A stretch of 64,000 nt of DNA from positions 67,216,278 through 67,280,277 of the forward strand of contig CP136066.1 of NCBI GenBank assembly GCA_032622095.1, in the 5' to 3' direction. The notes beneath the pieces were generated by a model. The model saw only the letters and a list, made by a program, of their open reading frames with translations. It had not been told where the DNA came from and did not search any database. The number at the start of each line of letters is the position of its first letter. The first letter of the stretch is position 1. The position numbers and the translations under genes were made by a program. Below are positions 2,276 through 64,000 of this stretch, one piece after another. Source of the DNA: Siphonodentalium dalli (lineage: Eukaryota > Mollusca > Scaphopoda > Gadilida > Siphonodentaliidae).

Positions 2276-2457
2276 TTTTACCGTGTTTTTTCCGTGTTAA
2301 AATGTTGGCCACGCGTGGTTTTGAAAAAACCACGGGCTTTGTACTGTATGTATGTTTAGTGTTATGTACAAATTTGTGTCATGGATCTGTGCTTGGGTGT
2401 AATTCGGTGTTACACATTTAGTGCTTGGGCAGATGTCTCTATCCGTTAACGCTAACA

Positions 2458-2590
2458 TGTTAAAGCCACATGGCGGTTTGCGCTCCAAAATACAAATAAT
2501 ATTATTAGATAGTTGATTTTTTCCCGGTATCGAAATAGGTCGATAATATCTTAAATACCTTTCTACGAACATTATGTAACCCAAAATGAT
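2458..2590. repeat. Dispersed repeat family R1, copy 1
   Basis: Starts at AAAGCCACATGGCGGTTTGC and continues with a CGGTATCGAAATAGGTCGAT block. The same sequence recurs at about 17209-17340 and 17589-17715, so it is an interspersed repeat. Its class is unknown. Confidence 0.65.
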
Positions 2591-2777
2591 CGGATAAGTT
2601 ACCGCCGGTTATTCTGGTGGTTGTGGTGGTGGTGTGAGGGGGGTGTATTTGTGCATGGTAATATAGCGATAAATAATTTATAACCGCATATCTATAAGAT
2701 GGTGCCGTGGAGACAGAAATTGCATACCATCTAACATCTCTAAACATATGGGGAAAAATTAGATCCTCTCTGATCTG

Positions 2778-3690
2778 CAGCATGTCTTTTGTCAACGAAA
2801 CTCATTTGAAACACAAGTCGTTATATTAGCTGGTGATCTCGTAAGACGCATTGCTGCAGGCCAGCATACCGATACTATTCTATTAAATTTCAGTAAGGCC
2901 TTCGACGAGGTCGATCATGGCAAATTGCTATATACACTTGAACATTATGGCATTGTTGGAACATAAGTTAATTGGATCAGAGCCTTTCTCAATAACAGAA
3001 CCCAAGTCGTAGTCCTGGAAGGGGGTGCCTCTTCAGAAATCTCAGTCACTTCAGCTTTGTCCTGGGGCCCATGTTTTTCTTCTCTACATCAACGATTTAC
3101 CAAAGCACATTACCACTCAAACACGCCTATTTGACGATGACACTGCTTTAAGCATGACAATAAATAACTCAAAAGATTCTGGACAACTATAACAGAGCTA
3201 AACAAAATATAGACATTGCATAATTTGGATATGGCCTTTAACCCCGCCAAAATGTCAAGTCCTCACAGTCACCCGCAAAGCAAAAAATCCATTATTTTGT
3301 ATTACACCGTTCACTCAAGTCTTGACCACGTTTGTAATGCACGATATTTGATCACCACATACAACGAACAACTACAATTGTAAATCAGGTCCTGGGCTTC
3401 CTAAAATGGAATGTTAAAACACAAACTAAGGCACGCAAGAAAGCAGCTTATCAGGCCATGGTTAGAGAAAAGCTGGAATATGCAGAAACCACTCAGGCAT
3501 AGCATATACAGCAACGCTGACGTGTACATGCATGTATCGTCGAATTCACACTGGTGCAAACTACTTTATATATTCATTCTTCCTAAGCATAGCTATACTT
3601 TGGAACCAACTCCTGTCTGATCTGATCAGGCCCTCTGATCCTGACAGGCCCAGGCGGAGTTCCTATCAGCTTCAACCATAAACCCAACAG
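2778..3690 (+). pseudogene. Degenerate LINE reverse transcriptase (jockey/CR1-like)
   Basis: Conceptual translation across several frames follows the order of a non-LTR retrotransposon RT. An SFETQ segment near 2800 is followed by NFSKAFDEVDHGKLLYTLEH and, past a stop, WIRAFLNNRTQ. A YINDLPKHI block with a damaged active site (FDDD where FADD/YADD is expected) lies near 3090-3150. Next come an FNPAKCQVL-like block near 3240, a KAAYQAMVREKLEYA block near 3435-3485, and a WNQL segment near 3600. Stops and frameshifts (for example after HYGIVGT near 2965 and around 3075) make it a dead fragment. No endonuclease domain or intact 3' tail is seen. The family assignment follows known LINE RT block order; the exact clade is uncertain. 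Confidence 0.8.
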
Positions 3691-5330
3691 CAACCTATGT
3701 TTTTAACTTGCATTTATGCTGTGCATGTTCTTTTAACTTGACAAACTTGTCAAGTCTCCACTTAGTTTTCCTCATCACCTGCTCTGACGCGCCTGGTGAT
3801 AATACACAACTAGGTGTCAACCAGTATAAAAAGGTAGATACGAAACGAGTGGGGTATATTGTAGGTGCCGTTTTTATCTGTTTTAGTATATCACGGTTGT
3901 ATATATTCTGTTATGTATCATGGCGCTTGCGCGCTTCATGTATTGTATGTATGTATGTATGTATGTATGCGCGTGAGAGCATGAACGATAATGTCACCGT
4001 GCAAGCTGATTAGCGTTCACCCTGTGTTACTGTTATCAGTCAGTAATTGTTTTCCGAAATGGTCAGACGCCTGATTATATATATCCATTGAAAGAGATCA
4101 TTTTGAAATGCAGATTTCATTATACAACCGAACAGAAGGGCCGGTCCGAAGGGTGTTCGGTTTAGAGAGGTTTTACTGTACTGAATATCTTTAATATCGT
4201 TTCATATTAGCTGTGCCGTGATAGCATGTTGATGCCTGTTAATATGATCTTAAATACACTTTGTTGACACGATTTCATTTGTTGTTGGACTTACTTTATA
4301 AGTTAAATCCAGCGGTTCAACAGATATATATATATATCACGTCACTGCATATCTACATTGAAACCATCAGCAAGTTTTCTACCAGAAAATAAATAGGTCG
4401 TACCAATTAATAGCAGGTTCTGACGGTCAAGTAGCAAAGCAACCCAATTATCGTTTCTCATAAAGAGCGTCTATGCTTTCGTTTCCCAAAACCGGTTGAC
4501 AATATTCAGTTGTCGCCCTTCTTCTCGGGAGATATTGAGACTTGTCACCCACTCGAACGGAATGTTTCGCGGGGAGCGCAGCTTCGATGGAGACATTCCA
4601 TTCTCGACCGGGTGAAAAATCTCAACATCACACGCACGGTGTTGCACTGAGTAATCGCATCGGACGAGTGTCGTGCCATCTCTCGCGATTATAGTTTCAG
4701 TAACTTCGTATCGTCCTAGGATGTATATTCATATATAAGTTAGTCAAGATGTTATGATTTTGATAACCGCCGTGCATTTAAAATCATGTCAGTGGTTAAA
4801 TCGTCAAAATTGGTCCATGCAATAAACCAATGAAATGATGTTCTTCTGCAATTGGCATATCTATGGACGGCCAAGCCACAGTGACGCACAGCTACGGGCA
4901 TAGTCCTTTCATTCCGACGCAAACCAGCTTGTGAAATCGGTAGGAATAATACTGATTTACGTCGAAACACGATCGCCTTATTCTTCTATAGCGGACTTTA
5001 AGCGTAAATCACCGCTCATATAAAATCACCAATACCGGTGTATTCCATGCAAAATACTTATGCTATTTGTTCTGAACTCCACAAGAGTTGGCAACTGAAA
5101 GTATTAAATTTAATATGGAAATATAGTTTCATCACAATGTTTACACAATTTCAAAAGAAAACGAACTCATTTGACCTCGCGAACTTCGTAACAGTTCGGG
5201 TCTTCTCAAGACGTAATCATACAAATCAAATGTGAGATTATTCGAATGTATACGGCATATTCTGTTCTAAGTTTAACACCAGTTAGATTATAATACATAA
5301 ACACTAATAACTGTTCTCAGGAGCATACGG
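3691..5330. other. Non-coding stretch with a TATG microsatellite
   Basis: No supported gene. A (TATG)n/(TGTA)n run occupies about 3943-3970 and a short (TA)n run lies near 4325-4337. Open frames are short and lack domain motifs. Confidence 0.5.
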
Positions 5331-18045: not shown

Positions 18046-18735
18046 ATAAATAATTGAGCTTAAGCGCAATAAGGAAGATCTAATTGCGCTTAAGCGAAAT
18101 AAGGAAATTCCTTATTGCGCTTAAGCACAATAAGGAATATCTTATTGCGCTTAATATTTTATTAAGCGCAATAAGGAATCACTTATTGCGCTTAAGCGCA
18201 ATGAGGAATATTCTCATTTCGCTTAAGCTCAATATGGAATATTCTTATTGCGCTTAAGGGCAATTAGATCTTCCCTTATTGCGCTTAAAGCGCAATAAGG
18301 GATTTCTTATTGCGCTTAAGCACAATAAGACATTATTTATTGCGCTTAAGCGCAATTACATCCTTATTGCGCTTAAGCGCAATAACTATCTCCCTCATGA
18401 GATCACCCCTCTGCAAATAGTAGAATTATACTATATTTGCCTGTTAACAAGCACCATGGACTACACCCTTTGAATTATAGGGAGTTTATGTAATGTCACT
18501 AATTGCACTTAAGTGCAAAAAGGATTATTCCTTATTGTGCTTAAGCGCAATTAGCTCTTATTGCGGTTACGCACAATAAGAATATTCCTTATTGCGCTTA
18601 ATAAGATATTCCTTATTGCGCTTAAGCGCAATACGGAATTTCCTTATTGCGATTAAGTTCAATTAGATCTTCCCCTATTGCGCTTAAGCCAAATAAGGGA
18701 TTCCTTATTGCGCTTAAGCTCAATTATTTATTAAA
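18046..18735. repeat. Array of short palindromes (TTGCGCTTAAGCGCAA)
   Basis: About 25-30 head-to-tail units of roughly 20-30 bp. Each is built on the perfect 16 bp palindrome TTGCGCTTAAGCGCAA or a slightly decayed form, separated by AAGGAAT/ATTCCTT-type spacers. A non-repeat segment (about 18385-18500) interrupts the array. Because the unit is self-complementary the array has no strand and would extrude cruciforms or slip easily. It is intronic to gene A. Confidence 0.9.
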
Positions 18736-22299: not shown

Positions 22300-23225
22300 G
22301 TTTCACTGTTTTAAGAAAAAATGATAAAAATTATTACAGAATGAAAGAATAAATGATAACAATTGATAAAAATTGTTAAAGATTGTTGCCTCTCACCTAA
22401 TACCTGTATTGTATAGATATTGAAAAAATGATAATTTGTTTTAAAGAATGTCAGAAATAATGATAAAAAATGATAATTTATAAAGAATGTAAGAAAAAAT
22501 GATAAAAAAAAATGATAAAGTTGTTAAAGAATATAAGAAAAAATGGTAAAAAATGTTATAGAATGTAAGAAAAAATGATAAAAAAAATGATAAAAATTAT
22601 TACAGAATGAAAGAATAAATGATAACAATTGATAAAAATTGTTAAAGAATGTAAGAAAAATAAAAAATAAATTATAAATTGTTTCTAGGCCAATGTATTC
22701 TCTTATTTATGCGATGCGATCTATGGTCGACTCGCATATATAAGAGAATGCATTGGCACATGATCTTTGACTGTTGCCTCTCACCTAATACCTGTATTGT
22801 ATAGATAGTGAAAAAATGAAAAAAATGATAAAAAAAATTGTTAAAGGAAGTCAGAAATAATGATAGAAAATGATAATTTATAAAGAATGTAAGAAAAAAT
22901 GATAACAAAAATGATAAAGTTGTTAAAGAATATAAGAAAAAATGGTAAAAAAAAGTGTTATAGAATGTAAGAAAAAATGATAAAAAATAATGATAAAAAT
23001 TATTACAGAATGAAAAAATAAATGATAACAACTGATAAAAATTGTTAAAGAATGTAAGAAAAATAAAAAATAAATTATAAATTGTTGTTAGGCCAAAGCA
23101 TTCTCTTATATATGCGAGGCGACATATGGTCGACTCGCATATATAAGAGAATATTAATGCATTGGCACATGATCTTTAATGTTGCGCCAGCGTAGCTCCG
23201 GTAATGAAAGGGATAAGACTTTTTC
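22300..23225. mobile_element. Hairpin MITE with A-rich GATAAAAAATG spacer
   Basis: Two copies of the ~70 bp hairpin (22689-22757 and 23092-23166) are joined by an A-rich stretch of GATAAAAA and GTTAAAGAATGTAAG words. The right terminus carries GCGCCAGCGTAGCTCC and AATGAAAGGG, like the other family members, but lacks the final TTAA. A similar A-rich block precedes the first hairpin. Minus-strand Phe/Ser-rich open frames here are composition artefacts. Confidence 0.7.
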
Positions 23226-23608
23226 GAAACATAAAGGGGGTAATTTTGGATTGACTTTGTCCATCTATCCGTTTTTGTCGTTTGACTGTTGACTCTGACC
23301 TAATACCTGTATTGTATAGATAGTGAAAAAATGAAATAAATGATAAAAAATTGTTAAAGAATGTCAGAAATAATGATAGAAAATGATAATTTATAAAGAA
23401 TGTAAGAAAAAATGATAACAAAAATGATAAAGTTGTTAAAGAATATAAGAAAAAATGGTAAAAAAAATGTTATAGAATGTAAGAAAAAATGATAAAAAAT
23501 AATGATAAAAATTATTACAGAATGAAAGAATAAATGATAACAACTGATAAAAATTGTTAAAGAATGTAAGAAAAAAAATAAATTATAAATTGTTTCTAGG
23601 CCAATGCA

Positions 23609-26555: not shown

Positions 26556-27010
26556 ACATGATCTTTGACTGTTGCCTCTCACCTAATACCTGTATTGTAT
26601 AGATTGTGAAAAAATGAAAAAAATATATAAAAAATTGTTAAAGAATGTCAGAAATAATGATAAAAAATGATCATTTATAAAGAATGTAAGAAAAAATAAT
26701 AAAAAAAAATTTATAAAGTTGTTAAAGAATATAAGAAAAAATGGTAAAAATGTTATAGAATGTAAGAAAAAATGATAAACAAAAGTGATAAAAATTATTA
26801 CAGAATGAAAGAATAAATGATAACAATTGATAAAAATTGTTAAAGAATGTAAGAAAAATAAAAAATAAATTATAAATTGTTTCTAGGCCAATGCATTCTC
26901 GTATATATGCGAGGCGACCTATGGTCGACTCGCATATATAAGAGAATGCATTGGCACATGATCTTTGACTGTTGCCTCTCACCTAATACCTGTATAGTAT
27001 AGATGGTACG
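26556..27010. mobile_element. Hairpin MITE remainder with A-rich spacer
   Basis: Continues the MITE interrupted by the Helitron. The A-rich GATAAAAA/GTTAAAGAATGTAAG spacer is followed by the second hairpin (26887-26955) and the TGATCTTTGACTGTTGCC tail also seen after 22757. No TTAA end was identified. Confidence 0.7.
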
Positions 27011-34275: not shown

Positions 34276-34808
34276 CAGAACCCTGTGCCAATGCATTCTC
34301 TTATATATGCGAGTCGAAAATAGGTCGCCTCGCATATATAAGAGAATGCATTGGCCTAACAAATTTTATATTATTTTTTATAATTGTTAAAAAATGTAAG
34401 AAAAAGATAAAAAAATTTAAAAAAAATTGTTAAAGAATGCAAGAAATAATGATAAAATATGATAATTTTTTTTAATGAATGTAAGAAAAAAATTGATAAA
34501 GAATGTCAGAAATTTTTTATAAAAAATGATTAAGTTGTTAAGAATATAAGAACAAAAAATACAAAATGTTATAGAATGTAAGAAAATATTATAAAAAATG
34601 ATAAAAATTAATAAAGAATATCAGAATAAATGATAAAAATTGTTAAAGAATGTAAGAAAAATTTATAAAAAAAAGATTACCTTTTTAGGCCAATGCATTC
34701 TCTTATATATGCGAGGCTACCTATGGTCGACTTGCATGTATAAGAGAATGCATTGGCACATGATCTTTAATGTTGCACCAGCGCAGCTCCCGTAATGAAA
34801 GGGTTAAG
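34276..34808. mobile_element. Hairpin MITE with expanded A-rich spacer
   Basis: Hairpins at 34287-34355 and 34689-34757 are separated by ~330 bp of GATAAAAA/AATGTAAGAAA words. The right end is GCACCAGCGCAGCTCCCG then AATGAAAGGGTTAA. Compared with 33533-33778, the spacer has expanded more than ten-fold. Confidence 0.75.
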
Positions 34809-44511: not shown

Positions 44512-44545
44512 ACAGGCCCTGGTGGAAGGCAAACGATCATTGTAT

Positions 44546-44737
44546 ATGTTGATCTTGTGTTTATCGCTCCGTTTATGTCTCGCGACTCAACCATTTTTTC
44601 GGACAATCCACATGAGTTATCTCAACGAGTTTGATGGAATATCGCAGTCACATCATTTGGGCGACGTTTCGATTCCAAACTATCGTTTGGCTCGAGATAA
44701 TCACATGTACTACGCAAAAGTATGGCGATCATATTGA
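44546..44737 (+). pseudogene. Truncated paralogue of the signal peptide/PAN exon
   Basis: ATG at 44546 opens MLILCLSLRLCLATQ, a plausible signal peptide, then HMSYLNEFDG, DVSIP and MYYA. These line up with HMKHLNKLDG, DVLIP and MYCA in the exon at 52239. After that point the PAN cysteines (CASICLSNEC in the intact copy) are missing and the frame ends WRSY-stop. A weak GTATGG donor could end an exon after the codon for Lys in MYYAK, but that is phase 0, unlike the phase-1 donor of the intact copy. It is most likely a damaged duplicate; a divergent working first exon cannot be excluded. Confidence 0.55.
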
Positions 44738-52238: not shown

Positions 52239-52563
52239 ATGTGGTCGGCTGTTCATCTCCTAGCGTTGTGCTGTTCATTTCATACGTGTCTCTCTGTTCT
52301 GTCTGATATCCATATGAAACACCTTAATAAGTTAGATGGAGTAACTATAACAAGAGTGTTGGCGGATGTTCTGATCCCGGTTCACATTTCAGATCGAGAG
52401 ATATACATGTACTGTGCGAGTATATGTTTATCCAATGAGTGTGTATCTTTCGTCTATGACAAGAACAATCAGATGTGTCACTTTTTTAAACAGAATCTCT
52501 TCAGTGGGAGCCCATCAAATATACCGTTACCAGGGGCAAAATACTACAGGCGGATCAACCCAG
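52239..52563 (+). CDS. First exon: signal peptide plus PAN/apple-like domain
   Basis: ATG at 52239 opens MWSAVHLLALCCSF and a hydrophobic run ending near CLSVLS, a typical secretory signal of ~22 residues. Then HMKHLNKLDG, DVLIPVHISD and the PAN-like core MYCASICLSNECVSFVY, followed by MCHFFKQ. The C-x3-C-x4-C-x2-F-x-Y and a later C follow PAN/apple domains, which mediate protein or carbohydrate contacts outside the cell. The exon ends in CCCAG with a strong GTGAGT donor at 52564, phase 1, so it can join any module exon of this cluster. The nearest candidate on this strand is the CTLD exon at 59324. A damaged copy is at 44546. No TATA box was recognised. Confidence 0.8.
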
Positions 52564-52890
52564 GTGAGTACTCCCATCAAATATACCGTTAACAGGGGCA
52601 AAATACTATACAGGCGGAACAACCCTGGTGAGTACTCCCATCAAATATACAGTTAACAGGGGCAAAATACTACCGGCGGATCAACCCAGGTGAGTACTCC
52701 CATCAAATATACCGTTAACAGGGGCAAAATACTACCGGCGGATCAACCCAGGTGAGTACTCCCATCAAATATACCGTTAACAGGGGCAAAATACTACCGG
52801 CGGATCAACCCTGGTGAGTACTCCCATCAAATATACCGTTACCAGGGGCAAAATACTACCGGCGAACAATCCAAGTGAGTGCTGGTTCAT
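52503..52890 (+). repeat. Minisatellite of exon end plus splice donor, six copies
   Basis: The last ~60 nt of the PAN exon together with its donor are repeated. GTGAGT occurs at 52564, 52628, 52690, 52752, 52814 and 52875 (periods 64, 62, 62, 62, 61). Each unit contains CATCAAATATACCGTTAACA and GGCAAAATACTACCGGCGGA with small changes. Copies 1 and 6 have TTACCAGG, the others TTAACAGG. In the exon frame the second copy gives a stop near 52590, so only the first donor yields an open message. Confidence 0.92.
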
Positions 52891-59290: not shown

Positions 59291-59323
59291 ACGTACGCTT
59301 TAACCAAGTGTTGGCCGTTATAG

Positions 59324-59563
59324 ATTGCGTGGATGATGGTTACCATCTTGTGTACGATGGGTCCTGTTATGATTCTCTCGTTGTATATTGCGTGGATGAT
59401 GGTTACCATCTTGAGTACGATGGGTTCTGTTACCTAGTCGACATGGTTCTCGACACGTGGATCAACAGTAGAGACAGGTGTGACCAGCTCGGAGGAAAAC
59501 TAGCGCTGGTCGATTCTCAGCTCAAATGGGAAATTCTGAGGGATTTTCTCTTTTCAGTGGAAG
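59324..59563 (+). CDS. Exon: CTLD N-terminal half with internal duplication
   Basis: A 240 nt phase 1-1 exon from a CCGTTATAG acceptor to a GTACAT donor. It encodes CVDDGYHL-x-YDG-x-CY twice (period 63 nt, starts at 59324 and 59387), then WINSRDRCDQLGGKLALVD and LRDFLFSVE. From the second copy on it aligns with the exon at 31129: a DC-type start, G-x-CY, helix with C before LGG, and DFLFSV at the junction. The first copy is an in-frame tandem duplicate of the N-terminal hairpin, adding 21 residues and two cysteines. No matching C-terminal half is found on this strand downstream, so it is either spliced to an exon beyond the window or orphaned. Confidence 0.78.
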
Positions 59564-62092
59564 GTACATGTTTGGTTAGATGCACACGTAGAAAGGTGCA
59601 ACAGGTTACGATGCCAATCACACAAGTACACGTTTTTAATGGAATAAAATCTAATATATGGCACGCAGTGCATATGCTACTACTCACATGGTATTCTACA
59701 CGTGCGAAGATTATATTTTGATTGAAGCCAATTAAGAATATCGGCGGTCGCACTGTGGACACGTCACTTGTCTCTACCACCGGATTATTGTTTACACGCT
59801 GTGCTACAAGTTGGGCAGATATATCAAAAGTGTAAAAGCACATGATTCTTCCCACCAAGTGCACAGGCCATTCCACACCATAGTAACACACGTTATACGT
59901 TGCACGTACGTGTTTCTGAACCTGACTAGTAAATAGTCTCCAGTCTGTTATTTTATGTATGGTGATGTTTAAAAGCCGTGCAAATATTTGGCGTAAGTGT
60001 TCTCGTAACATTTATCACATATCACACTTATCATGAAGCCTTTTGGATATTATTAAGTCTATTGCACTATGATACATTAATAAATTATCGTTAATTATTT
60101 CGGTTTTACGCGCAGTTATATACATGTACATTTACACAAACACATGCTCGTGTTTCTCGTCTTGTCTTTACCGGGATTGGCCAAGTTATAGCATACATAT
60201 ATATATTATTCATACATATATTGCATACGAATACTTGCAAAGTTATAGAGTAGTGTTATAGACATTGATATCTTCAATACTTTTCGGTTGTGAGGTTTGG
60301 GAACTTATCTAATTTTTTTAAGTTGTTACTATATTTGAAAACATCAACTCCAAATTATATGGTCTAAGGTGAGACTGGCACGTATCCAATGGAAATAGTA
60401 ATTAAAACCAATTTAGTTCGGTGTTGGTCATCTTTAGTATCCACTGAATCTGTTAAACTTTCGTAATTATTTTTGCTTATTATAGAAAATGCATTCTGAA
60501 GGACGATTCTGTCCCTCTTGGCTATCAAAAGTAGGAATTTGTTTTTTATTTCAATTTGAAAAAAATACATTCACGTGTAAAAAAAAATATTCAAAGATGA
60601 CATACAATTTTCTGAACTCGACAGGCTAATTGTATTCCATAACCAATACTAGTTTTCAAATTGAACAGTATCTATAGTCTAAAAATCAATCGTTTGTCTT
60701 CATATTAGCTCGATTCACAACCCGAAATCACACCCTTCCGTTTGAGAGCGGAACTTATCTTAATGTCCGTAAAGAAGGACTGTGCCAGTGTTGACGCAAT
60801 GCCCATACCTCCAAATACCGTGTCTGGACTTATTTGATCCCACGGTTACTGGACAATATACCACTAGCCACCATCCACCATTCAGCCTTGTCAAATGATT
60901 CATTAGTGTAAATCATAATTACTGATTAACTGATGTATTTGGTAGCACATTGTTTGAAAATGTACTGCCACGAGTGCCTTTCGTTGCCCACTAAGTTGCA
61001 TCACATACTCAGTTAGCAGATGATCATACTATATGATTGATTCTCATGTCGCTCCCGTTACAAAATAAATTTGGGTATTGGAATTAGATTTCTCAGACTT
61101 TGGGGGTAAACAAAAAACAAAACTTCGGCCAAATACAATATTGTTTTGGCCATTTTCGAGCAAAAACCAAGGACGGCGTGTACCTTTCTCTGTACCCGTT
61201 GCAATCGATGAACGGTGGGCGATGAACAATGCATTGCCTCGAGGAATGTGCAGGTAATAACTTTGATACAGTACACGAGGCTCAATTTCCAATGTGTAAT
61301 ACATCACGTTATTCGTTATTGAAATCGAGAACATTTTTCAAAATTCTCGACCATCAGTCACGAAAGGAACTTGTCGCTTCTTGAAATTCATTCAACAGAC
61401 CGTTGGGACCTCTCTTGTTTACCCAATCTGCCATATCATATATTAGCAAACACTACTTTGTGAAATCCTATGCAATGCATCGACTAGAAAATGGGTCCCA
61501 CAATAAGCGGAATTTGACTAAACGGACCCTACAGACCTACGATCGTTTGTTCTATATGTGGCCCTAATAATGGCGAGGACGCTACGATTGTGTTGTCTCA
61601 CCAAGAAATCAACGAACCGACGTTCGAGTATTCAGCAATAGACTAATTAAATTATCAGTGCTCTAAGATAGATTCCAGAAGCAAATTTAATCTCAGACAT
61701 TTGAAAAATACGTACTGGCGTAATTCGTACCAGGGGTGACACTACACTTACCACACTGTCAGGTCGGGAGCCGACGCTAATAGCTGTCCCATGTGCAGCA
61801 ATGTGCTCACGGGAAAGAACCCTACCGTGCTTAAGTAGTCGCGGATTTGGCTAAAATCCGGGACAAATTGGGTGGTGGATCAACCCGATCCCTTCACAAG
61901 AGTCTTCAACATGATGAATTTCGCGAGGTATCGATAGATAGCTATATGTTCGGAATATTGCGCCTCCAAAACAATCTTGTTGACTCACACTTATAACAAT
62001 TCGCACGTGGTTAGCGGTCTATATATCAAAGCAATCTACTTGCGGCGTGTTCTATTGCATATCCCATCAGTAAAACGTCCACGACGGCAATG
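59564..62092. other. No recognised gene or CTLD second-half exon
   Basis: Scanned on the + strand for WW-x-GQP and GD-x-PC type sequence without success. The long minus-strand frame 59517-60011 partly mirrors the CTLD exon and has no domain of its own. Open frames at 61044-61334 are unsupported. Confidence 0.45.
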
Positions 62093-62258
62093 TATATTAT
62101 ATAAATATTTTACGGCTTGGGTGAGATGAGCCTCCGTCTCGGAGGCTATTCCACTCCTCGGACCACTGTTTTTGTATAGCCATCGACCAGCCGTGCAATA
62201 TTTATTATATTTTATCGAACGTTCTTCATTCTGTCCCAGGATCCATAATATCAAACAA
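62093..62258. mobile_element. MITE family R2, copy 2
   Basis: AATATTTTACGGCTTGGGTG and CGTGCAATATTTATTATATT flank a loop with GAGCCTCCGTCTCGGAGGCT. The tail CATTCTGTCCCAGGA matches 46230-46410. Confidence 0.72.
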
Positions 62259-62701
62259 TTGACAATCAGATATTGTTATTAGCTGGCGAAAAATTCAAAG
62301 ATTCATTAATAATAACACTTTGGTAGGCACAACACTTATTTCTCGGGTTTTCTCTGACCAGGAATAACATTGGTTATGTACAATGTACAGCTCCCTCCAA
62401 TAGAAATTGTTGATTGTACGTTATCATAGACTTTGGTGGCACTACAGGCTGCTAGATGCTGATTAATAGATCATAAATGGGAATATCATCTAGTCCTAAC
62501 ATTTCACCTGCAGTCAACGAATTGTTATGTTTTCTCAGGTCATTGTTGTCTGGTACTGGTGTCACCTCAGAACTCGAACCAGCAGATAGATGGTTAGCAT
62601 TAGCATTTGACATGCTACGCTTGTTTTTCAGAAGCATCGGCGCAATAACTCATAATTTACTGTGGATTTCTACGCATTGATACAGATGCAATATGTCTTG
62701 C
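62259..62701. other. Non-coding or unrecognised
   Basis: Open frames on both strands (62452-62680) without known motifs. A low-complexity Ser/Asn-rich minus-strand peptide could be part of the Crypton-like sequence to the right, but nothing demonstrates this. Confidence 0.3.
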
Positions 62702-63171
62702 TTAACCCTTTCAGTGCCAGGGGCCGATCTTATCGGCCCTAATTTACGGTCTGTAAAATCGGCCCTAAAATAGATTTTTTTTAAGTTTATATTTTGTTTG
62801 GTATGCTTAAGCATGCTATAGCGAATTTAAAAACAAACTGGTTAAAACCTTAGGGGCATGTTATAACTAAAAACTATCTCCAAGTATTCATAGTACTAAT
62901 TTTGATGCCCATGATAAATGTAAGATTCCCTGGCACTAAACCTACAAAATAAGTCTGGCACTGAAAGAGAGTAGAATATAAGCAAAAATTATTAAAATTA
63001 TAAAACATTGTAAAAAATAATAACAAATGATGAAAATTTGTTAGGCCAATGCATTCTCTTATTTATGCGAGGCGATCTATGATCGACTCGCATATATAAG
63101 AGATAAGAGAATGCATTGGCACAGGGTATATGGGTTGATACAAAAATCGGATTTGGCACTGAAAGGGTTAA
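62702..63171. mobile_element. Complete TTAA-flanked MITE with one hairpin
   Basis: TTAACCCTTTCAGTGCCAGG at the left and TTGGCACTGAAAGGGTTAA at the right, with TTAA at 62702-62705 and 63168-63171. The interior has GGGCCGATCTTATCGGCCC and one family hairpin (63045-63120). It ends ~95 bp from the Crypton-like fragment. Confidence 0.82.
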
Positions 63172-63265
63172 AAGCCACAATAATTGAGTATTGTAATTGC
63201 TGTAGCTCTGATACAGTGGTCAGTGTACAATTTTGACAAGCATGCCATCTATGCGCATTTGTACA

Positions 63266-63777
63266 TCATATTCCCCAGGGTGTTGTGTCCCATAGGCATA
63301 GGAATAGTGCCCTACATTCATTGTTCCGTTTACTCGAATATCTTTCAAATGACTCAATGGGATATGTTGGCTTGCCAGTGGTGTACACCCTAGCACCCGA
63401 ACCTTCTCCGCTGATCACGGTATCGCCTTGATAGTTTTTTTGTTTGTTCAGATGTAACTTTTTATAAGATACTTTCTACCATCATCATCACATTTAACTT
63501 CAAAATCAGTTGGCTTCAGTTCACGGAGATGTTCACGGCCCCTCACAATCTCAAAGAATGTTTTGTTTACGACTCCGAATGGTATACTGGTGTCAAACAG
63601 CATAGCGTTGTACATCTGGTTAATATCCTCAGATGTAATGGGAGCCTTATGTTTCAGTTTTCCTTTCCCGACAGAAAGACATTTTTTTAACATCGCCTCG
63701 AATTCCGAACAACTTTTGGTGAAGATTGCATTTGTCAAGAGATCGGTTTCCCTCGTCTCATTTAACTGCCTATTGAG
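63266..63777 (-). pseudogene. Crypton-derived DUF3504-like (KIAA1958/ZMYM-type) fragment
   Basis: Minus-strand translation gives LNRQLNETRETD, SCSEFEAMLKKCL, GKGKLKHKAPITSEDINQMY, IPFGVVNKTFFEIVRGREHL and LKPTDFEV. After a TGA at 63448 and a frame shift comes GEGSGARVYTTGKPTYPIES and NNECRALF. The order (short N-terminal helix, GKG-x-HKxPIT-x-ED, FFE-RGRE-LREL, then G-R-x-YxTG-P-PI-SF) matches proteins with DUF3504, the domesticated Crypton tyrosine-recombinase relatives. About five residues that usually separate FFEI from RGRE appear deleted. With a stop and frameshift it is a broken copy. It joins the CTLD exon directly at 63777. Confidence 0.62.
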
Positions 63778-63961
63778 CACGGCGCGTCTCCCATCTCGTA
63801 TCCGCTCATGGCACGGTACATAGCCAAGCAGCTCTGACCGGTCCCTCCATTCGGCTGTCCGCCCCACCATTTTAGAAAGGGTGATGGGTCTCCTGACAAT
63901 GTGCGCCATGTCCCTTCTGATCCTTGGTCATTCCCATCTATCATGACGTAGCTGTCGGCTC
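63762..63961 (-). pseudogene. Exon: CTLD C-terminal half, truncated
   Basis: On the minus strand a TTTCACCACAG acceptor opens a phase-1 exon at 63961. It contains YVMIDGND, EGTWRTLSG, KWWGGQPNGG, QSC and GYEMGDAPC, position for position like the exon at 32399 (YIDG, EGTW, WW-x-GQP, NC, MGD-x-PC). After the C3 cysteine (63777) homology stops: the frame reads SIGS and ends at 63762, so the last cysteine and final strand are lost. Crypton-like sequence begins at exactly this point. The first-half exon should lie to the right, outside the window. The loop motif is QPN, between the usual EPN and QPD. Confidence 0.78.
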
Positions 63962-64000
63962 CTGTGGTGAAAAAAATTAGTTCGTTTGATATATTTGGGG

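Follow-up and report, generated by a model that had tools for sequence, protein, structure and literature searches.

A six-unit minisatellite across the donor boundary of a PAN exon in Siphonodentalium dalli, probably a tolerated tandem duplication

The end of a PAN exon, together with its splice donor, stands six times in tandem in a 64,000-nucleotide stretch of the genome of the scaphopod Siphonodentalium dalli (hereafter the window; C6:67216278-67280277 in a nine-contig genome of 2.23 Gb). The locus raises the question of whether the six donors diversify or regulate the splicing of their gene or are merely carried at an exon-intron boundary. We favor the second answer: the array is likely to be a tolerated tandem duplication across the boundary, close to neutral, with the normal mRNA made from donor 1.

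The PAN exon, its lectin partner, and the repeated donor

The features on which the argument depends are the following.

52239-52563, + strand: PAN exon (exon 1) with ATG and an apparent signal peptide; open frame, Pfam PF00024, phase 1 end (MWSAVHLLALCC...KYYRRINP + G)
52511-52572, + strand: unit 1, at the ancestral position; the final 53 bases of the exon and the initial 9 of the intron, with donor CAG+GTGAGT at 52564
52573-52636, + strand: unit 2, 64 bp; donor 52628 (CTG+GTGAGT); read-through from unit 1 stops at the TAA in its TTAACAG
52637-52698, + strand: unit 3; donor 52690 (CAG+GTGAGT); open 30-nt cassette 52660-52689
52699-52760, + strand: unit 4; donor 52752 (CAG+GTGAGT); open 30-nt cassette 52722-52751
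52761-52822, + strand: unit 5; donor 52814 (CTG+GTGAGT); open 30-nt cassette 52784-52813
52823-52883, + strand: unit 6, 61 bp, divergent, last; donor 52875 (CAA+GTGAGT); runs into the original intron; cassette 29 nt, out of frame
59324-59563, + strand: predicted exon, 240 nt, phase 1-1, encoding the first half of a C-type lectin domain; its acceptor reads CCGTTATAG+ATTGCG; supported by the frame joined to exon 1, by paralogues, and by phmmer

The first-pass annotation had called exon 1 a PAN exon, and Pfam confirmed this (E = 2.2e-6; score 27.8 bits, cut-off 21.4); the apparent signal peptide is our reading of the hydrophobic N-terminus rather than a tool prediction. The lectin exon, 6.8 kb from the PAN exon, is the nearest downstream exon identified. 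It had no Pfam CTLD match over 59324-59563, and in the PDB phmmer matched it to CTLD chains of LY75 (E = 6.1e-6, taken over the whole chain) and CD69 (E = 0.0023). The two exons together make up a predicted gene model. Three-frame Pfam scans of 59300-63999 and the next 9.8 kb returned no further lectin-domain exon and a single PP2C match below its cut-off (E = 0.024), but these scans also missed the predicted half-exon in the first of these stretches and are too weak to show absence. The remainder of the lectin domain was not located by these scans or by blastn against the flanks of three paralogues, in which the 66.83-Mb flank had several matches of 73 to 83% and the other two had short matches. 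The strongest short flank matches, the only ones examined, were inverted-repeat elements. Short inverted-repeat elements with AATGCATTCTCTTATATATGCGAG ends, resembling small mobile elements, are shared by lectin loci (approximately 4061-4294 in L048 and 9601-9888 in L051). On the minus strand, 63448-63927 holds an open frame of 159 residues whose best Pfam match (E = 0.15) is below cut-off. Upstream in the same cluster, 44537-44728 and C6:66930178-66930369 each hold a PAN-like exon that is only distantly related (E = 9.6e-4, identity 36%).

Minisatellites are head-to-tail arrays of units of about 10 to 100 bp, and the donor array is one: TRF reported 52511-52880 as a head-to-tail repeat of period 62 with 6.0 copies, 93% matches, and a score of 638, the highest of the 66 rows for the window. 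TRF ends the array at 52880; we take unit 6 to 52883. In a repeat search, successive unit starts were spaced by 62, 64, 62, 62, and 62 bases, with a 2-nt insertion in unit 2 and a 1-nt loss in the diverged unit 6. Every unit starts with CCCATCAAATATAC, and units 1 to 5 end with GTGAGTACT. The claim of six tandem copies of about 62 bp carrying the exon end and donor thus stands, with GTGAGT intact in 6/6 units. The base triplet before it varies: CAG is present in units 1, 3, and 4 only, CTG in units 2 and 5, and CAA in unit 6. The acceptor-like TTAACAG followed by G, which had been ascribed to the copies in general, is found in units 2 to 5 (4/6) and is replaced by TTACCAG in units 1 and 6. Because it combines 53 exon and 9 intron bases, unit 1 spans the boundary; its exon end was placed from the frame and the paralogues, not from transcripts.

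A 23-base sequence across the junction between units has 10 exact matches in the genome, namely, five in the window array and five in its twin (see below), and eight further places with three mismatches; the same sequence read backward, as a control, has three places in all. As DNA, unit 3 folded into a hairpin no better than shuffles did (z = 0.70; 151/200 shuffles at least as good). A scan for bacterial promoters and terminators, with bacterial models that are not relevant to an animal gene, found nothing. The surroundings are rich in minisatellites, with large AT-rich and TTAAGCGCAATAAGG tandem arrays at 18053-18724, 22423-23576, 26603-26881, and 34420-34672.

Origin of the array from a single unit

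When the genome was searched with the DNA of the array, five places were found: the array itself, a twin, and three paralogues, L003, L004, and L005. The twin, 330,638 bases upstream, has the same six units and differs by 2 mismatches in 3,388 bp. The region around it (C6:66.89-66.95 Mb) is 94.9 to 100% identical to the window in sampled pieces and is without an approximately 2.9-kb stretch near window 2349-5247. The pair could be a recent tandem duplication subject to conversion, or else two haplotypes placed end to end. The unit number is six in both copies, which thus give no sign of the variation in unit number that the first-pass annotation suggested.

Each of L003, L004, and L005 has one unit, and the array is therefore the derived state. 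One unit thus became six after the window gene split from its neighbour. The window segment 52503-52572 is identical to L003 and L004 (70/70 bases), in both of which the exon end GTGAGTACT runs directly into GGTTCATT; in the window, GGTTCATT comes only after unit 6 (GTGAGTGCTGGTTCATT). These paralogues bear out the first-pass reading of the locus as an amplified donor and identify the donor at 52564 as the ancestral one. The PAN exons of L003 (C6:67291376-67291679) and L005 (C6:183.19 Mb) are themselves broken, by a short frameshifting deletion and by an in-frame stop, respectively.

Unit 1 probably also exchanged sequence with paralogue B. Between exon 1 of the window and that of paralogue B' (L004), 37 of the 334 aligned columns differ, gap columns included, and none of these is in the last 79 columns, an outcome with a chance of 2.3e-5 if differences fall at random. 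The end of the exon is not simply invariant, because L005 has nine differences from the window and nine from B' in the last 71 columns. For exon 1 of the window gene and B', dN is 0.094 and dS 0.125 (22.0 and 8.0 changes), with no change in the last 22 codons, a pattern that may weakly and not decisively point to either weak constraint or conversion. Two variable sites are informative within the array: L005 carries TTAACAG with CTACCGG and B' carries TTACCAG with CTACAGG, and all four combinations occur among the six units. Exchange of sequence among the units would explain this most simply; repeated mutation is the alternative.

The same outgroup bears on the acceptor-like sequence. In L005, TTAACAG lies inside the coding sequence of the exon, which means that it already formed part of normal coding sequence when the array arose; the idea that it is a product of the array is not upheld.

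We envisage that one paralogue in a gene family combining PAN and C-type lectin domains acquired a 62-bp duplication over the PAN exon-intron boundary. Unequal exchange or slippage may then have raised the number of units to six, accompanied by exchange of sequence between units. Unit 1 would have retained the original exon end and donor, and units 2 to 6 would have become intron with redundant donors. Duplications that span a boundary can survive because the coding exon is left intact, whereas a 62-bp duplication wholly within the exon would shift the frame. Duplications of this kind also occurred on the acceptor side of this intron and over the donor in a second PAN clade.

Duplications over other exon-intron boundaries

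The lectin exon carries a duplication of its own at the acceptor end.

59324-59449, + strand: 63-bp duplication (two copies) over the acceptor end of the lectin exon, unit starts 59324 and 59387

At the second acceptor position, the window has TAT and the twin TAG. Use of the first acceptor (59324) would add 21 residues in frame. In a paralogue at C6:66.83 Mb (L045, C6:66826500-66832500), the same acceptor boundary is an array of 74-bp units, for which TRF gave 9.4 plus 25.9 copies. By motif, this array has approximately 34 units, with AT at the splice position in 31 and AG in 3. Compared by eye, the 63-bp unit is the 74-bp unit minus 11 bases and hence a multiple of three. One intron thus carries tandem duplications at both of its ends. 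All of its donor copies have retained their splice sites, whereas most acceptor copies in the paralogue's array have lost theirs. The loss of AG in 31/34 units may hint that live extra acceptors are harmful, which we set against near-neutrality, although those units derive from one another and cannot count as independent losses, and the donor array has lost none of its sites.

A separate duplication was found over the donor of another group of PAN exons. At four places (L024 to L027, C6:5.80-6.42 Mb), a 47-bp unit is present twice with both donors intact, and by eye, reading past the first donor into the second copy meets TGA; their kin L029, L030, and L034 have a single copy of the unit.

The PAN search of the genome returned 36 matches at 35 distinct places, and 32 donors were scored, leaving out L033, where the donor was not placed, and the distant copies L039 and window 44537-44728. 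L033 (C5:18590700-18591700) has a 34-bp array of 8.6 copies that begins 45 bases past the PAN match. Six of the 32 donors lie inside a tandem array and represent two events by our count. Arrays of period 20 or more cover 8.8% of the bases flanking the 32 donors (400 upstream to 500 downstream), and the mean of the 26 values listed for the donors outside arrays is approximately 5.6%. Over roughly a dozen independent PAN lineages, grouped by eye, about one event is expected and two are seen. The overlap of PAN donors with arrays is therefore not clearly above the local array density. The proportion 6/32 does exceed the flank coverage, though the loci are not independent, and we count it against near-neutrality.

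A genome-wide bias of donor motifs to tandem arrays was also considered and is not claimed: there is a mild excess at most, also when loci are counted. Pairs of CAGGTGAGT spaced 25 to 55 bases apart numbered 1379 places against 364, 379, 884, 446, and 343 for five composition-matched control motifs, but these counts are dominated by a few long arrays. Counted by hand as distinct loci on C1 and on C2 up to 215.84 Mb, the pairs came to 21, against 18 (including 12 from a single dispersed family), 11, and 10 for three controls. Single occurrences of the donor motif numbered 11,860 and those of its backward control 10,234, these being the only two motifs so counted.

Boundary duplication is a kind of event already described. 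In the part of PMC2812944 drawn on here, internal tandem repeats at exon-intron boundaries are known from human segmental duplications, with units that average 30 bp and are repeated four times and with transcripts available. Like the present arrays, they are minisatellites in recent paralogues that alter exon-intron structure; unlike them, ours have six 62-bp units at the donor and approximately 34 units of 74 bp at the acceptor and are known from DNA alone. Tandem duplication across an exon-intron boundary is also described in potato, in the part of PMC4974935 consulted. The donor array shares with intron gain by tandem duplication a boundary-crossing duplication with splice signals and units containing AGGT (3/6 here), but in that system a new intron was detected, whereas the extra copies here sit inside an old intron, as judged from sequence. 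What differs is the larger number of units and their presence on both sides of one intron. A narrow literature search found no donor minisatellite of at least six units in titles and abstract openings, and we make no claim that none is in print.

Splicing from the six donors

Donor 1 joins exon 1 in frame to the lectin exon at 59324 and is the only donor to do so without an internal acceptor. On read-through to any of donors 2 to 6, the protein always ends ...RRINPGEYSHQIYR, stopped by the TAA within the TTAACAG of unit 2. Neither this stop nor the duplication on the acceptor side had been noted in the first-pass annotation. The distance from the stop on to the junction is 35 nt with donor 2 and 97, 159, 221, and 282 nt with donors 3 to 6, respectively. 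As a rule, nonsense-mediated decay acts on transcripts whose stop lies more than 50 to 55 nt before a junction, so transcripts from donors 3 to 6 would be targets. Measured against the GTRAGT-type consensus of donors, no later donor surpasses donor 1, and those of units 3 and 4 equal it. Under exon definition, the upstream of two near-equal competing donors is favored (PMC9225289, in the part of the source used). Given this preference, the long identified intron, and the absence of a later donor nearer the consensus, we think that donor 1 dominates, with some leakage possible. That unit 1 keeps the ancestral place, that the acceptor lies 6.8 kb off, and that the surroundings of PAN donors are rich in arrays also count for the tolerated duplication; that all six donors are intact and that units 3 and 4 read as donor 1 count against it.

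These last two facts make leakage to later donors quite possible and lead to the alternative that the extra sites are leaky decoys. Donors 3 and 4, together with the others, would compete with donor 1, and a fraction of transcripts would stop in unit 2, giving either a secreted PAN fragment ending GEYSHQIYR or mRNA lost to nonsense-mediated decay; the unit number would then tune the gene down. The stop distances above agree with such products, and SRSF1 can favor the intron-proximal donor (PMC5585400, as far as the part used goes). We nevertheless consider it rather unlikely that this is what the array does, since at such close donor strengths exon definition favors the upstream site. In either case, the array is a natural experiment on donor choice, with six near-identical donors approximately 62 bp apart in one exon context, only one of them full-frame, and single-donor paralogues as controls. 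Use of later donors, if seen in RNA, would link mutation of a minisatellite to the regulation of splicing in a lectin family.

A broader proposal is that in this genome both ends of introns in the PAN/C-type-lectin family recurrently become minisatellites, that spare donors and acceptors vary the splice outcome, and that the unit number thereby acts as a quickly mutating switch of splicing in what may be an immune family. The outcomes would be cassettes of 10 residues, shortened PAN fragments, or the 21 residues added by the duplicated acceptor. Judged from the sequences, we regard this as improbable.

The cassettes themselves were described in the first-pass annotation and proved correct as drawn: units 3 to 5 each define an open 30-nt phase 1-1 cassette. 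Its estimate of about 32 nt from a donor to the next acceptor-like site was also right (32 nt), as was the suggestion that skipping to a later unit is conceivable, at least on paper, since joining donor 1 to units 3, 4, or 5 would keep the frame open and remove a first intron of 96, 158, or 220 nt, respectively. By contrast, units 2 and 6 break the frame, the former with a cassette of 32 nt after a 32-nt intron and the latter with one of 29 nt. If donor 1 were spliced to an internal TTAACAG, 0 to 3 extra copies of GAKYYRRINP would be inserted, as the cassettes of units 3, 4, and 5 combined also stay open. TTAAC, moreover, fits the branch-point consensus. We hold this length-diversity reading to be very doubtful. 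The AG context is ancestral coding sequence, as L005 attests, a 30-nt microexon is short, and by eye, without scoring, there is no clear pyrimidine tract before the AG. The closest parallel is the multigene family of prawn Rlec C-type lectins, which likewise has a minisatellite and in which, in the part of PMC7536079 drawn on, immune activity increases with the number of 30/33-bp coding repeats. Those repeats are in frame, in exon 2, and translated, whereas the 62-bp unit is not a multiple of three, meets TAA in unit 2 on read-through, and is intronic if donor 1 is used.

It is highly unlikely that the array is removed by recursive splicing, with the CAG+GTGAGT of units 3 and 4 as ratchet points and the mRNA unchanged. 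Ratchet points are juxtaposed acceptor and donor sites, as given in the part of PMC8605326 used, and AG directly adjoins GT in units 1, 3, and 4 (3/6), the latter two at 126 and 188 nt from donor 1. However, the units here are tandem and closely spaced, units 2, 5, and 6 have no AG/GT, and the acceptor context looks poor, with pyrimidines at 8 of the 15 positions that precede the AG in units 3 and 4, counted by eye and without a scoring model. Least credible of all is that misassembly made the array or the twin: a copy some 330 kb off that is 94.9 to 100% identical in sampled pieces is what two haplotypes might look like, but a 370-bp array would be short for long reads, both copies hold the same six diverged units, and the differences between units are unlike stutter.
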